Shown here: positions 3,309 through 44,201 of the stretch, piece by piece
How positions within the stretch are numbered: position 1 is the first letter of the stretch
Layout: the number at the start of each line of letters is the position of its first letter
Origin: Modestobacter lapidis
GTDB taxonomy: Bacteria > Actinomycetota > Actinomycetes > Mycobacteriales > Geodermatophilaceae
Direction of reading: 5' to 3'
Length of the DNA: 64,000 nt
Assembly (NCBI GenBank): GCA_019779905.1
Contig: JABAKE010000001.1
Coordinates: 186,001 to 250,000 of the forward strand
The notes under the pieces: generated by a model
The model's database searches: none
Told to the model about the DNA's origin: nothing
Seen by the model: the letters and a program-made list of their open reading frames with translations, nothing else
Translations under genes and position numbers: made by a program

Positions 3309-3728
3309 ATGGCAACCGAGCCGGCACCACCATTCCAGGAGCGGGCCCGGGGCGCAGCGCTGGGGCTTCCGGCCAGCGGCCCGGGGTCGCTGGCCGGCTT
3401 CGGTCAGCGCATCGGGGCCTTCGCCGTCGATGCCATCGCGGCCGCCCTGGTGGCCGGGCTGTTCACCGCCCCGGAGCTCCCCGGCAACTGGAGCCTGCTG
3501 TCGTTCGTGCTGATCACCATCGGCTTCCTGGCCGCCACCGGCCAGACCCCGGGGATGCGGCTGCTGGGCCTGCGGCTGGCCCACCCGCAGGCCGGCCGGC
3601 GGCTGGCGCTGTGGCGGGCCGTCGTCCGCACCGCGCTCCTGGCGCTGCTGGTGCCCGCCCTGGTGGTCGACGTCGACGGCCGTGGCCTGCACGACCGGCT
3701 CACCGCCACGGCCGTCATCCGGGACTGA
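3309..3728 (+). CDS. RDD family membrane protein
   Basis: 139 aa. An Ala/Pro-rich N-terminus leads into the RDD domain: GFGQRIGAFAVDAIAA (first helix with the R..D pattern), a central helix pair, the loop GQTPGMRLLGLRLAH, and the C-terminal LHDRLTATAVI. Function is unknown; such proteins are suspected transporters. ATG 3309 is chosen over an in-frame ATG at 3255 because TACGCT ends 7 nt before it, giving a leaderless start, and no ribosome binding site is present. It is divergent from glnA. The M. tuberculosis region has a comparable RDD gene (Rv2219A) beside glnA1. Confidence 0.85.
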   Translation: MATEPAPPFQERARGAALGLPASGPGSLAGFGQRIGAFAVDAIAAALVAGLFTAPELPGNWSLLSFVLITIGFLAATGQTPGMRLLGLRLAHPQAGRRLALWRAVVRTALLALLVPALVVDVDGRGLHDRLTATAVIRD

Positions 3729-10291: not shown

Positions 10292-12019
10292 TCATGCCGG
10301 CATCAGTGAGCTGCCGGCGACCGTCGCCGCCAGAGTCGTCCCGGTGGGGTCCGGAGTGCGGCGCCGGGCGGACGGCGGGCGGCCCCGGCGGCTCGGTGCC
10401 GGGTTGGCGGCATCGTGGCGGACCGGGTCGGCGGCGTCCAGCCTGGCGGCGAGGGTGGCCCGCACGCCGTCCCGGTCGAGCTGGTGCAGGACGCCGGTGA
10501 GCGCCTCGACGAACTCGGGCCGATCGCCGAGGTCCCCGAAGACGGCCCGGACGCCCAGCAGGGGCCGGGGGTCGGTGCCCCCGGCGACGGCCAGCGCGCG
10601 CAGCTCCTCGGCCCGCTCGTCGTGCAGCGGGAAGGGGCGGCCCTGCAGATCGGTGCCGCGCAGGTACCGGCAGAAGCCGGCGACCGCCAGGGTCAACAGG
10701 TCCGCGCGCCGGCCGGCGTCCAGAGCCGCGCGCAACGAGGGCAGCACGTACAGCGGCATCTTCGACGAACCGCGCCGGCACAGCCGCTCCAGCCGGTCGG
10801 CGATCGCCGGATCGGCGAACCGCGCCAGCAGGGTGCGCTGGTACCGGTCCAGGTCGATGCCCGCCGGGGCGGGCAGGAGCGGGGCGATCTCCTCGGCCAT
10901 CAACCGGGTGACGTACTCGCTCAGGTCGGGGTCGGCCATCACCTCGTCCATCCGGACGTGCCCGGCGAGGCGACCGAGGTGCCCCAGCGCGCTGTGGCCG
11001 GCGTTGAGCAGCCGGGTCTTCATCAACTCGTAGCCGCCGACGTCGGGCACGAACTGCACACCGACGTCCTCCAGCGGGGGACGGCCGTTGCAGAACTCGT
11101 CCTCCATGACCCACTGGGAGAACGGCTCGGTGATGACCGGCCAGCGGTCGTCGACGCCGAACCGGCGTGCGACGTCGTCGCGGTCCTCGAGGCTGGTCGA
11201 TGGCGTGATCCGGTCGACCATGCTGCCGGGGAACGAGACCGAGTCGACGATCCAGCGGGCCAGCACCTCGTCGCGCAGCCCGGCGAAGCCCACCACCGCG
11301 GCCCGGGTGGTCTCGCCGTTCTGCTGCATGTTGTCGCAGGACAGCACGGTGAACGGGGGCTGCCCGGCCCGGCGCCGGCGGTCGAGGCCCTCGACGATGT
11401 ACCCGAACAGCGACCGCGGGTGGTGCGGGTCGTCGAGGTCAGCGCGGACGTCGTCGTCGTCGGGGTCGAACTCGCCGGTGCGGGGGTCGATCCGGTACGC
11501 CGTACCGGTCACCGTCATGGTCACCAGCCGGGTCCGCGGGTCGGTGAGCGCGGCGAGCACGGCGTCGGGGGCTTCCGGGGCGAAGTGGTAGTCGACCATC
11601 GAGCCGACCACGCGGGCGCGCTCGCCGTCCCGGCTGCGCTCGACCACCGTGTACAGGTAGTCCTGCGGCCGCAGGGCGTCGCGCATCGCCGGTGACCGCA
11701 GGCCCACCCCAATGACGCCCCAGCCGGTCTCGCCCTGCTCGGCCAGGTCGTCGAAGTAGACCAACTGGTGCGCGCGGTGGAACCCGCCCACACTGAAGTG
11801 GACGACCGCCGGGGTCAGCGCGGCCCGGTCGTAACCGGGCACCCGGACCCGTTCGGCGTGCCGGGCCAGGGTCTGCTCGGACAGCGGTTCGGGCGAGAGG
11901 GCAGCGGTGTTGCGGGCAGGGACGGAACGCGCGGTGGTGTCCAGAAGGGCCTCTCGGGTCATGGCGGACGTGCCGGGGCGTGCGGGAACGTGTTGCCCGG
12001 GTCGGGCGTGGTCGTTCAT
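10292..12019 (-). CDS. Mannitol dehydrogenase family protein (long-chain polyol 2-dehydrogenase)
   Basis: 575 aa, about 80 longer than Pseudomonas mannitol 2-dehydrogenase because of extra N- and C-terminal tails. The N-terminal NAD-binding region has VVHFSVGGFHRAHQLVYFD. The body has DNMQQNGETTRAA and FPGSMVDRITPSTS. The catalytic helix is MKTRLLNAGHSALGHLG with the Lys/Asn/His set. It interconverts a ketose and an alditol with NAD(P). ATG 12019 has GGAGGAT 7 nt upstream. It is first of the four-gene operon with the HAD, glycerophosphotransferase and nucleotidyltransferase, suggesting that it makes the polyol. A catabolic role is possible, but no transporter or kinase is adjacent. Confidence 0.88.
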   Translation of the reverse strand: MNDHARPGQHVPARPGTSAMTREALLDTTARSVPARNTAALSPEPLSEQTLARHAERVRVPGYDRAALTPAVVHFSVGGFHRAHQLVYFDDLAEQGETGWGVIGVGLRSPAMRDALRPQDYLYTVVERSRDGERARVVGSMVDYHFAPEAPDAVLAALTDPRTRLVTMTVTGTAYRIDPRTGEFDPDDDDVRADLDDPHHPRSLFGYIVEGLDRRRRAGQPPFTVLSCDNMQQNGETTRAAVVGFAGLRDEVLARWIVDSVSFPGSMVDRITPSTSLEDRDDVARRFGVDDRWPVITEPFSQWVMEDEFCNGRPPLEDVGVQFVPDVGGYELMKTRLLNAGHSALGHLGRLAGHVRMDEVMADPDLSEYVTRLMAEEIAPLLPAPAGIDLDRYQRTLLARFADPAIADRLERLCRRGSSKMPLYVLPSLRAALDAGRRADLLTLAVAGFCRYLRGTDLQGRPFPLHDERAEELRALAVAGGTDPRPLLGVRAVFGDLGDRPEFVEALTGVLHQLDRDGVRATLAARLDAADPVRHDAANPAPSRRGRPPSARRRTPDPTGTTLAATVAGSSLMPA

Positions 12020-12020
12020 G

Positions 12021-12355
12021 TCAGATCCTCCACACGTCGGCCGACAGCTCGGCGGGCACGGTCGCGCGGCGGTGCACCACGACGTCGTCCCCGGGCGGCA
12101 CGTCGTCGATCGCGGGCGCGACCGCGGTGCCAGCTCCACCAGAAACGAGGTGCCGACCGGGCCGGCCGCCTACGCGGCGACGGCCCAGGTGCTCCACCGG
12201 CGTCGTGCATCCCGGCCGCGCTGCCGGTCCGCTCCGGCAGCGGGTCGGCGCTGCTGTTGAACGCCGGACGGCTGTGCTTCCCCCGCCTCCACCAGCGCAA
12301 ACCCGGCCCGAGAGGTGACGGGTACCACGCACGGCTGCCGAAGGTCGGCGGCCAC
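12021..12355 (-). pseudogene. Possible decayed or frameshifted small gene before the mannitol dehydrogenase
   Basis: Between the leuS control region and the dehydrogenase lie about 335 bp with coding-like base use that moves between frames on the minus strand. A GTG at 12355 follows TACGCT by 8 nt and opens MAADLRQPCVVPVTSRAGF, which stops at 12170. Good third-position G+C then appears in a second frame (FNSSADPLPERTGSAAGMHD). It returns in a third frame ending IDDVPPGDDVVVHRRATV...VWRI with a TGA 1 nt before the dehydrogenase ATG. This fits a gene broken by indels, or chance open frames in high-GC DNA. No family is recognised. Confidence 0.3.
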
Positions 12356-12393: not shown

Positions 12394-12428
12394 CGGGGGA
12401 GCGTTCCCCCGCGCGCTAAGCTCGCCCC
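12394..12428 (+). promoter_or_regulatory. leuS promoter with overlapping inverted repeat
   Basis: A TAAGCT -10 hexamer (12417-12422) ends 6 nt before the GTG of the leader peptide, so transcription probably starts at or next to that codon. Just upstream is an inverted repeat, cggggga-gcgt-tcccccg (12394-12411), in the -35/spacer region, which could be an operator. No convincing -35 hexamer is present. Confidence 0.5.
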
Positions 12429-12464
12429 GTGACCGGCGGGCTCCTGCTCCACCAGCCGTGCTGA
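12429..12464 (+). CDS. leuS leader peptide with three consecutive Leu codons
   Basis: An 11-codon frame starting GTG at 12429 encodes MTGGLLLHQPC and stops with TGA at 12462-12464. The Leu codons are CTC CTG CTC. It is immediately preceded by a leaderless-type promoter and followed by an 8-bp stem (gccgtgct 12455-12462 with agcacggc 12481-12488) and then an intrinsic terminator. This is the layout of a classical ribosome-mediated attenuator: charged tRNA-Leu lets the ribosome finish and the terminator form, whereas stalling at the Leu codons would allow read-through into leuS. Attenuators ahead of leuS have been predicted in some Streptomyces. A strong antiterminator pairing was not found by eye. 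Confidence 0.65.
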   Translation: MTGGLLLHQPC

Positions 12465-12489
12465 CCTGATCGACAAGGACAGCACGGCG

Positions 12490-12515
12490 ACCCCTCCTGC
12501 GTGAGGGGTTTTTTT
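12490..12515 (+). terminator. Attenuator terminator upstream of leuS
   Basis: Stem acccctc (12490-12496) pairs with gaggggt (12503-12509) around a 6-nt loop and is followed by a T-run to 12515. This is one of the few U-tract terminators in the window and lies between a leader peptide and leuS, not at a gene end. That placement marks it as conditional. Confidence 0.75.
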
Positions 12516-12552
12516 CTGCCCGCCGCCGGACGAACACCCAGGAGTGCCCACG

Positions 12553-15456
12553 ATGAGCCAGCCGGCCAGCCAGCCGAACCCCGAGACGACCGCGGACGGG
12601 GTGCCACCGCACCGGTACACGCCGGCGTTGGCGCAGTCGATGGAGCTCGCCTGGCAGGACCGCTGGGACGCCGAGGGCACCTTCCACACGCCCAACCCGG
12701 TCGGCGCGCTGAGCGCGGGCTTCGAGCGGGTCGCCGACCGCCCGAAGGCGTTCGTGATGGACATGTTCCCGTACCCCTCGGGTGCCGGGCTGCACGTCGG
12801 GCACCCGCTGGGCTACCTGGGTACCGACGTGACCAGCCGGTTCCTGCGGATGGACGGGCACAACGTGCTGCATCCGATGGGCTACGACGCCTTCGGGCTG
12901 CCCGCGGAGCAGTACGCCGTCCAGACCGGTCAGCACCCTCGGGTCACCACCGAGGCGAACATCGCCGCGATCTCCGCCCAGCTGCGCCGGCTGGGTGTCG
13001 ACCACGACACCCGGCGCACCTTCGCCACCATCGACCCGGGCTACTACCGGTGGACCCAGTGGATCTTCCGGCAGGTCTTCGAGGCCTGGTTCGACACCTC
13101 CGCCGACGGTGGCCGCGGCCGGGCCCGGCGGATCGCCGAGCTGGTCGCCGAACTCGATGCCGGTACCCGCGAGCCCGTGCCGGGCACCAACGACACCGGT
13201 CGCCCCTGGGGCGAGCTGACCGGGATCGAGCGCCGCCGGGTCGTCGACGCGCACCGGCTGGCCTACCGCCACCAGGCCCCGGTCAACTGGTGCCCGGGCC
13301 TGGGAACTGTGCTGTCCAACGAGGAGGTCACCGCCGACGGGCGTTCCGAGCGGGGCAACTTCCCCGTGTTCCGGCGCCCGCTGACCCAGTGGATGATGCG
13401 GATCACGGCCTACGCGGAGCGGTTGCTCGACGACCTGGACCGGTTGGACTGGTCGGATTCGCTCAAGCACATGCAGCGCAACTGGATCGGCCGTTCGACC
13501 GGCGCCCGGATCCGGTTCGCGGCCGGCCGCAGCCGGGACATCGAGGTCTTCACCACCCGCCCCGACACCCTGTTCGGCGCCACCTACCTGGTGCTGGCCC
13601 CGGAGCACCCGCTGGTCGGGACGCTGACCGCGGCCGGCTGGCCCGACGGCGCCGACCCGCGGTGGACCAACGGCGCGGCCACCCCGGCCGCGGCGGTGGC
13701 GGCGTACCAGAAGCAGGCCTCCCGCCGCTCGGAGCTCGACCGGCAGGCCGAGGGCCGGGAGAAGACCGGCGTCTGGCTGGGGACGACGGCGGTCAACCCG
13801 CTGACCGGTGGTGACCTGCCGGTCTTCGTCGCCGACTACGTGCTGACCGGCTACGGAACCGGCGCGATCATGGCCGTGCCCGGCGAGGACGCCCGCGACT
13901 GGGAGTTTGCCCAGACCTTCGGCCTGCCCGTCGTCCGTACCGTGCAGCCACCGGCCGGTTTCGACGGCGGCGCGTACACCGGCTCCGGGCCGATGATCAA
14001 CTCCTCGAACGAGCACCTGTCGCTGGACGGGCTGGACAAGGCCGCGGCCATCGCGACGGTGACGCAGTGGCTGGTCGGGCACGGGCACGGCGAGGCGACG
14101 ACGACCTTCAAGCTGCGCGACTGGCTGTTCAGCCGGCAGCGGTACTGGGGTGAGCCGTTCCCGATTGTCTACGACGCCGACGACCTGCCGGTCGCCGTTC
14201 CGGACTCGATGCTGCCGGTGCTGCTGCCGGAGGTGGACGACTACTCGCCCAAGACCTTCGCCGACGACGACGACACCTCCGCCCCGGAGCCGCCGCTGTC
14301 GCGCGCCACGGAGTGGACGACGGTGACCCTGGACCTGGGCGACGGCCCCCGGGAGTACCGGCGGGAGACCAACACGATGCCCAACTGGGCCGGATCGTGC
14401 TGGTACTACCTGCGCTACCTCGATCCCTCCGACGACGAACGCTTCGTCGACCCGGAGCTGGAGCGCTACTGGATGGGCCCGCGCCGGGACGGCGACACCG
14501 GCGGCGTCGACCTGTACGTCGGCGGTGTCGAGCATGCGGTGCTGCACCTGCTGTACGCCCGGTTCTGGCACAAGGTGCTGTTCGACCTGGGGTACGTCTC
14601 CAGCGAGGAGCCGTTCCGCCGGCTGGTCAACCAGGGCTACATCTCTGCCTACGCCTACACCGACGCCCGCGGCTTCTACGTGCCGGCGGCCGAGGTGGAG
14701 GAGCGCGACGGACGGTTCGTCCACGACGGGGAATCGGTCGACCGCGAGTACGGGAAGATGGGCAAGAGCCTGAAGAACGTGGTGACGCCGGACGAGATGG
14801 TCGCGGCGTTCGGCGCGGACACCTTCCGGGTCTACGAGATGTCCACCGGCCCGCTCGACCAGTCCCGCCCGTGGGAGACCAAGGCGGTGGTCGGTGCGCA
14901 GCGGCTGCTGCAGCGGATCTGGCGGGTGGTGGTCGACGAGGAGTCCGGTGCCGTGCGGGCCGCCGACGTCGAGCCGGACGACGCCACCTCGCGGGCGCTG
15001 CACCGGGCGATCGAGGCCGTCCGGGACGGCATGGCGACGCTGCGGTTCAACATCGCGATCGCCCGGATCACCGAGCTGACCAACCACCTGACCACGGCGT
15101 ATCCGCCCGGGACGGCGGTGCCCCGCCCGGTCGCCGAGACCCTGGTCCTGTTGCTGGCGCCGCTGGCCCCCCACGTGGCCGAGGAGATGTGGTCACGGCT
15201 GGGTCACCCGGACTCGCTGGCATGGCACCCCTTCCCGGTGGCCGAGCAGCGCTGGCTGGTCGACGAGACCGTGCAGGTGGCGGTCCAGGTCAACGGCAAG
15301 GTGCGCGCCCAGGTGTCGGTGCCGGCCGGCGCGGACGCCGCTGCGCTGGAGGCCGCCGCGCGCGCCGACGAGCGGATCGCGGGATACCTGCTGGATGCGA
15401 CCGTGCGCCGGGTCGTGGCCGTGCCCGGCCGGCTGGTCAACTTCGTCCTGGGGTGA
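12553..15456 (+). CDS. leuS: Leucyl-tRNA synthetase
   Basis: 967 aa class Ia synthetase that charges tRNA-Leu. The nucleotide-binding HIGH motif is HVGHP (81-85) after [14 protein letters not shown] is KMGKS (about 735-739). Between them lies the CP1 editing domain with [14 protein letters not shown] and the [14 protein letters not shown] motif. A C-terminal anticodon-binding region ends in the [14 protein letters not shown] domain. ATG 12553 is preceded by CAGGAG. A GTG three codons upstream is in frame but worse placed. Expression is probably controlled by the leader peptide and terminator upstream. Its stop is followed directly by a family A repeat and a terminator shared with lipB. Confidence 0.97.
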
Positions 15457-43946: not shown

Positions 43947-44000
43947 TCCCTCGTTCGGGAGAGTGGTCGTCACCGCACAGAGGGTGACCTCGTTCCGAAC

Positions 44001-44171
44001 ACCGCCGAATCAGCCGGCCACTTCCCTGGCCGGGTGAACCGGGGACCCACCGCAGCACTGGGGTGAGTTCTCACGCGGCCGGGCAACCGGACCGCACGCG
44101 CCGGCGACGGCGCGCAGAGATAGGGCGATCTTCTTCCTCGCCCGAACCCGTCAGCTAACTCGGTAGGCGGT
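44001..44171 (+). promoter_or_regulatory. Cyclic di-AMP (ydaO-yuaA class) riboswitch
   Basis: The sequence matches the ydaO-yuaA consensus as I know it from actinobacteria: ACCGCCGAATC at the 5' side, GGCCGGGTGAACCGGGGACCC (44028-44048), GGGGTGAG, and the 3' block CGAACCCGTCAGCTAAC followed by GGTAGGCGG. The closing stem pairs accgcc (44001-44006) with ggcggt (44166-44171). This class binds c-di-AMP and in actinobacteria typically controls cell-wall hydrolases such as the NlpC/P60 gene 30 nt downstream. No U-tract terminator is seen, so the expression platform is unresolved. Confidence 0.88.
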
Positions 44172-44201
44172 CGATGTGGAGGAAATGGAGCCGCGCCGAC
44201 C

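Follow-up and report, generated by a model that had tools for sequence, protein, structure and literature searches.

A conserved leucine-codon leader ahead of leuS in Modestobacter and other Actinobacteria: a predicted transcription attenuator whose stop-codon hairpin lies flush with the terminator

The leuS gene of Modestobacter lapidis was analyzed together with its upstream region in a 64,000-nucleotide stretch of contig JABAKE010000001.1 (positions 186,001 to 250,000), referred to here as the window, which also supplies the coordinates used below. The gene lies on the + strand at 12553-15456, begins with the ATG at 12553, and encodes leucine--tRNA ligase (TIGR00396 match, 876.4 bits). It is preceded on the same strand by the parts of an attenuator, which would place leuS under its control. 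Reading of the sequence identifies a -10 box, TAAGCT (12417-12422), located 6 nt 5' of a GTG codon, which is the spacing of a leaderless transcript. The GTG opens a leader frame at 12429-12464 (GTG ACC GGC GGG CTC CTG CTC CAC CAG CCG TGC TGA, encoding MTGGLLLHQPC*) in which the Leu codons CTC CTG CTC occupy 12441-12449. The stop codon of the leader (12462-12464) overlaps the 5' strand of a hairpin stem, here called P1, whose strands are at 12455-12463 and 12480-12488. An intrinsic terminator follows at 12489-12515, with its stem at 12489-12496/12503-12510 and its T-run at 12509-12515, and the leuS Shine-Dalgarno sequence AGGAG was located by eye at 12540-12544. A first-pass annotation of this DNA had named the -10 box, frame, stem and terminator before leuS, and all of these parts are present, including the 11-aa leaderless-type frame with its three consecutive Leu codons. 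The stem overlaps the end of the frame as it had described but is 9 bp long and not 8 bp, and the terminator with its T-run is also present, but its stem begins at 12489 and not at 12490. The agreement it had drawn between the regulatory codons and the controlled gene is borne out by the Leu codons before leuS.

In the predicted fold of the leader the 9-bp P1 and the terminator stem touch, with zero bases between them. The folding energy of the leader is -44.3 kcal/mol, compared with -29.5 +/- 3.2 kcal/mol for shuffled sequences (z -4.62; 0 of 200 shuffles were as good), and a terminator scan of the leader returned 2 overlapping matches against a mean of 0.2 in shuffles. The 5' neighbour is a mannitol dehydrogenase gene on the opposite strand (ORF 10292-12139), so the + strand terminator belongs to the leuS leader and does not close a + strand gene located 5' of it. 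No Rfam family, including riboswitches and the T-box, reached its gathering score at the leuS leader. The sole Rfam threshold match in the window is a c-di-AMP riboswitch (RF00379, 66.7 bits) on the + strand at 43993-44186.

The element is conserved throughout the genus. The -10 box, the leaderless-type 11-codon frame, the Leu run, P1 and the terminator are kept in 23 of 23 genomes (that of the window and 22 more), with TANNNT 6-7 nt before the GTG and a run that comprises two to four Leu codons. The sequence GCCGTGCTGA is unchanged in 22 of the 23 and carries one change in the other (L019). A strict terminator pattern is present in 20 genomes, and the remaining three have variant T-runs by eye. 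The first-pass annotation had made the presence of the Leu codons and terminator in close relatives one test of its proposal, and this test was passed in all 23 genomes.

Two covariance models were used to follow the element beyond the genus: R1, built from 24 sequences, and R2, built from 91. R1 matched 168 of 394 genomes of the class, and R2 matched 167 of 249 genomes of the order and 15 of 296 genomes drawn across the phylum; these tallies include some matches to leaders of ilvB and cimA, which were not purged. R2 matched each of the 39 genomes listed for the family of the window. One of the 15 phylum matches lies outside the class (G507), where reading of the sequence gives the leader MAAALLLSPPR* and then leuS. 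Genomes of the order that R2 did not match number 82, and the 20 of these that are listed begin with other families. Neither model matched any of the genomes listed for one family of the same order (f8), whereas matches occur in many of the order's other families; this family may have lost the element, or may possess another kind of leuS control.

The detailed analysis covered 109 loci, of which 99 are leuS-type leaders and 10 are leaders of other genes. Nine other fetched loci (L047, L048, L055-L061) are outside this set, as are many further matching genomes, mostly from the two most-sampled genera. By tblastn, leuS is downstream in 98 of the 99 leuS-type loci, and the other (L062) stops at a contig end. 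A hand count gives some 29 family labels for the leuS-type loci. TANNNT precedes an in-frame start codon in 98 of the 99, at exactly 6 nt (65 loci) or 7 nt (33 loci), and the start codon is ATG in 56 and GTG in 42, the exception (L070) being cut by a contig end. From this spacing, transcripts of the leuL-leuS leaders are predicted to be leaderless.

A pattern scan of named genomes that was blind to leuS gave 46 matches, 43 of which have leuS downstream. Among the named hosts are Micromonospora, Jiangella, Amycolatopsis, Kineosporia, Actinopolymorpha, Saccharomonospora, Kutzneria and Streptacidiphilus. The other three are L156, where the DNA ends at once, L144, which looks like chance, and L159. 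By eye, the L159 leader (from 1986) is followed at once by the final codons of a leuS-like frame; this locus comes from a MAG and may represent a deletion or a misassembly. L144 and L148 are labelled as other phyla, and L148, whose leuS is 65% identical to that of the window, may be misbinned. In addition, Actinopolymorpha pittospori (L172) possesses two different leuS genes approximately 2.8 kb apart, each with its own leaderless-type Leu leader (MRVALLLTEPR* and MQPVALLLTWPR*) and flush hairpin pair (about 545-650 and 3360-3460). Two distinct LeuS types also share the leader element (for example at L036, L037 and L049), with approximately 33-48% versus 58-100% identity to the window's LeuS over the stretches compared.

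The distances between the parts of the element are nearly constant. The start of P1 lies 12-15 nt beyond Leu codon 1 in 95 of 96 leuS leaders, and exactly 14 nt beyond it in 65. The gap between P1 and the terminator falls within -2 to +1 nt in 91 of the 96, and is 0 or 1 in 78. The 96 leaders in these counts are the 99 leuS-type leaders minus three (L111, L122 and L140) that have no perfect terminator stem under the strict rule. P1 contains or borders the leader stop codon, which lies 21 nt past Leu codon 1 in 78 of 98 leaders and 12 nt past it in 14. The P1 loop, the terminator sequence and the length of the leader vary. A flush helix of at least 9 bp adjoins 66 of 73 leuS-type terminators, compared with 4 of the 32 remaining terminator-like sites in the DNA that was retrieved, and three of those four sites are leaders of the same kind that the filter had missed (two by reading, one by position). 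CTT serves as the third Leu codon in 87 of 99 leaders, but it accounts for 12 of the 1674 Leu codons counted in leuS coding regions; the window, with CTC, departs from this pattern, as do 10 others. E. coli leuL likewise has a rare sensing codon. Beyond the terminator, counting from the last G of the stem, T is frequent at +9 (84%) and G at +10 (73%) among 95 loci (12517-12518 in the window), and a C-rich, TCCGG-like sequence follows. This T and G resemble the motif of an RNA polymerase pause site.

Both helices are supported by covariation. In an alignment of 91 sequences (A4), 98.1% of cells pair and both sides change at 11 pairs; there are 118 doubly changed cells, compared with 25.3 in shuffles, and slid registers reduce pairing to 41-53%. 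Because this alignment had been fitted to the model, the strands were also compared side by side, placed by codon and terminator position. In this structure-free comparison of 54 distinct strand pairs, whose register was set on pairs 1-4, nearly invariant and therefore uninformative, pairs 5-11 form 5.907 of 7 on average, versus 5.255 +/- 0.079 of 7 for partner-swapped strands (best of 2000 swaps, 5.537). P1 and the terminator are real helices and both covary. A further 8-bp helix is possible between leader codons at 12434-12441 and sequence after the T-run at 12518-12525, and it is strong in the genus. Own versus swapped partners give z 6.2 over 95 loci and 2.8 over 45 cluster representatives, and z falls to 1.6 over the 42 representatives outside the window's family; its formation would require readthrough. 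Base pairing between the 3' strand of P1 and the terminator loop (CACG/CGTG) was also considered by eye and dropped, as it comprises 3-4 bp and is missing in some lineages.

It is improbable that the terminator is constant, or that the element yields a small RNA, with no control by leucine. Such a function does not account for the joint conservation of the frame, the Leu run, the stop codon at the stem, the spacing and the terminator across many families, nor for the genome in which each of two different leuS genes has its own copy of the leader. The window element belongs to the known leuL-leuS leader family, in which a Leu-run frame is followed by a U-tract terminator. A comparative study of such operons (Lopatovskaya 2010, cited in PMC4833913) may already list more leuS cases. 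Classical attenuators were predicted at leuS of S. avermitilis and S. coelicolor in 2005 (Seliverstov, PMC1262725), as the first-pass annotation had noted for some Streptomyces. The leuL2 leader of S. lividans TK24 was mapped in 2021 as leaderless, with a hairpin and U-stretch (PMC8079986), and five of our loci encode the same peptide, MRAVRLLLSEPR. These Streptomyces elements resemble ours in having a Leu-run leader, which in ours is predicted to be leaderless, together with a hairpin and a U-stretch before leuS. We consider a transcription attenuator of some sort ahead of leuS highly probable, and the proposal of ribosome-mediated attenuation with a leaderless Leu leader peptide gains support from conservation, covariation and the mapped S. 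lividans case. The element is very probably a leucine-sensing RNA brake, widely kept, that is released at low Leu-tRNA.

How the brake is released is a separate question. A textbook attenuator requires an antiterminator that takes bases from the terminator, so we determined whether the 5' arm of the terminator is paired upstream before its 3' arm emerges. The E. coli controls gave the expected difference between a stalled ribosome and one at the stop codon (thrL 0.75/0.04, trpL 0.71/0.05 and leuL 0.60/0.13). For the leuS leaders, mean pre-pairing was 0.15 stalled and 0.38 at the stop (n=89; the 96 leaders minus seven with short upstream sequence or without a stop at +12 or +21), and in the window it was 0.03 and 0.28. 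Folding detected no stall-dependent base-sharing antiterminator, defined by a stalled-minus-stop difference above 0.3, in any of the 89, whereas the difference was below -0.3 in 32. One leader alone (L068) exceeded 0.5 when stalled, but its stalled-minus-stop difference did not pass 0.3. The statement of the first-pass annotation that the region has the full layout of a classical attenuator is not supported: the antiterminator, which that annotation had also failed to see by eye, was detected in 0 of 89 leaders against 3 of 3 controls. Higher pre-pairing at the stop is the reverse of a classical switch. Equilibrium folding with a ribosome block was also performed, and it gave a terminator probability of 0.97-0.98 in every state; since it missed the switches of thrL, trpL and leuL, its terminator result was discarded and only the state of P1 was kept.

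In that folding model, P1 is the part that responds to the ribosome. Its mean probability falls from 0.99 for a ribosome at Leu codon 1 to 0.46 at Leu codon 3 and 0.0 at the stop. As only P1 shifts with ribosome position, and would be present when leucine is short, it would then have to permit readthrough. We propose the following switch. Transcription would begin at or beside the GTG at 12429, and a ribosome would read the 11-codon frame as P1 and the terminator emerge from RNA polymerase. When Leu-tRNA is plentiful, the ribosome would reach the stop codon in the P1 5' strand and keep P1 open, so that the terminator could form and transcription would stop before leuS. With scarce Leu-tRNA, the ribosome would stall on the Leu codons; from general knowledge of ribosome footprints, its front edge during a stall on Leu codon 1 would be at about 12453, just short of P1 at 12455, and P1 would form. 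Closure of an intrinsic terminator at the polymerase should need a single-stranded 5' flank, which a flush helix would oppose. P1, abutting the terminator base without a spacer, would therefore leave closure at the polymerase incomplete, and leuS would be transcribed. P1 would thus act as an antiterminator by adjacency, taking no bases from the terminator.

Provided that an attenuator exists, we assign this adjacency switch a probability of about 0.5. The value was lowered from 0.55-0.6 because of the result for Leu codon 3, where P1 exceeded 0.5 in 0 of 95 leaders under the assumed footprint. With P1 half open at that codon, adjacency needs stalls at codons 1-2 or a footprint shorter by a few nt. 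If stalls at codon 3 are the most frequent and the footprint is right, they would speak against adjacency. The adjacency model also does not predict the higher pre-pairing at the stop. In addition, altered regulatory codons are reported to have had no effect in the related S. coelicolor ilvB leader (PMC1262725), which also counts against the proposal.

The first alternative is a textbook attenuator whose base-sharing antiterminator was missed by energy folding, for example through non-standard pairs, a triplex, an overlap of 1-3 nt or a protein factor. There are several precedents. Antiterminator hairpins are named for both Streptomyces leuS leaders in PMC1262725, a model for S. venezuelae trpE that needs RNA triplexes is cited in PMC4833913, and switching in C. 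glutamicum ilvBNC occurs via a 3-nt overlap according to PMC11857589. An overlap of 1-2 nt between P1 and the terminator is allowed in 13 of our 96 leaders, so base sharing is not zero everywhere. However, the best P1 stays outside the terminator in the other 83, and the expected stall-dependent pairing was found only in the E. coli controls. We consider this alternative unlikely.

Hairpin 1:2 of the trp attenuator is a pause hairpin, and P1 could likewise be a pause or helper hairpin, which slows the polymerase for the ribosome or aids termination within a hairpin cluster, the switch then being a matter of timing or of the ribosome itself. The half-open P1 at Leu codon 3 fits this function, as do the T and G that are common 9-10 nt past the stem, and hairpin clusters are argued to terminate transcription in PMC8355165. 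A pause hairpin alone, however, leaves the fixed distance of P1 from the terminator in 91 of 96 leaders unexplained, and a helper P1 implies that, with leucine plentiful, a ribosome at the stop codon would promote leuS expression, contrary to the usual logic. We regard this function as rather unlikely.

A third alternative is control of translation, in which the Leu codons pair with the leuS Shine-Dalgarno sequence and a stalled ribosome frees it. CTCCTG (12441-12446) is complementary by eye to CAGGAG (12539-12544), and the actinobacterial leuA LEU element is a precedent: it too has a leader frame with a Leu run, and PMC1262725 presents it either as a pseudoknot or as an alternative hairpin, with the Leu codons bound to the Shine-Dalgarno sequence in the base stem. 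However, the Leu codons CTC and CTT are complementary to any Shine-Dalgarno sequence, the rare GTA and ATT codons of the ilvB and cimA leaders are not, and the terminator is left without a role. This alternative is very improbable.

The adjacency switch may also be considered in the leaders of other genes. Among the non-leuS leaders, two precede acetolactate synthase (ilvB; L127 and L137) and two precede citramalate synthase (cimA; L130 and L138), assignments based on 110-aa N-terminal pieces that score below the curated full-length cut-offs. Five more (L129, L131, L134, L136 and L141) have a citramalate-synthase-like start by eye, and L139 was left unassigned. The genome of the window itself contains two candidate attenuators of this kind. 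The cimA leader, MSAPDTIIII* (L200, about 1345-1450), has a 10-bp P1 that starts 14 nt after the first Ile codon and is 1 nt from the terminator; neither a TANNNT nor a CANNNT box was detected by the scan 6-7 nt upstream of its frame. The ilvB leader, MRRTLLVVIA* (L201, about 1130-1240), for which the same scan gave the box CACAGT, has a P1 of 5 perfect pairs followed, by eye, by a mismatch and 5 more, which starts 14 nt after the GTA codon and is 1 nt from the terminator. In the 10 other non-leuS leaders the gap between P1 and the terminator is 0 in 10 of 10; the 14-nt distance falls in frame in five of these, and in the other five the run's first Ile or Leu codon starts 13 nt before P1. The pre-pairing test detected no stall-dependent rise in these leaders either. 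The sequences of their stems are unlike those of leuS, so shared sequence alone would fail to explain the geometry. The leuS, ilvB and cimA attenuators of Actinobacteria might thus share one switch without alternative base pairing, in which a stop-codon hairpin flush on the terminator and a stall approximately 14 nt upstream produce a physical block at the polymerase exit channel, with stems and codons varying while the geometry remains constant. This generalization is tentative and somewhat doubtful.

The nearest tested precedent for an adjacent-hairpin switch is C. glutamicum ilvBNC, which PMC11857589 describes as a 'fast' attenuator: neighbouring antiterminator and terminator hairpins contend for a boundary of three bases, where point mutations alter expression. 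According to the same text, it resembles the leuS element in its leader, leaderless there and predicted to be so at leuS, in its rare and conserved control codons, CUU and GUA, and in an antiterminator hairpin that adjoins the terminator. It differs in that its hairpins share a GCC boundary, while the gap is 0 in the window and most leuS leaders have no overlap, and in that it controls another gene. The E. coli trp, thr and leu attenuators also have regulatory codons in a leader peptide and a terminator before the gene, but a base-sharing antiterminator was detected by the same test in all three and in none of the leuS leaders. The Streptomyces leuS attenuators were described as classical with an antiterminator in 2005, or as a hairpin with a U-stretch in 2021, whereas no base-sharing antiterminator was detected here. 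Overall, the element is real and, with high likelihood, regulatory; its kind is known, and its switching step appears to depart from the textbook. We present three aspects as new: how widely the element occurs, its use of a rare codon, and the combination of a constant flush geometry with the absence of a base-sharing antiterminator.

Textbook accounts present attenuation as a decision between two alternative base-paired folds. If the adjacency switch is correct, contact between adjacent helices at RNA polymerase would be enough to decide termination, through a fixed geometry of 14 nt and zero nt kept in many actinobacterial families, and there would be grounds to re-examine the S. coelicolor ilvB leader, in which codon changes were reported as ineffective. 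If the switch is wrong, the Streptomyces leuS attenuator would still be extended to many other families, mostly with a rare Leu codon.
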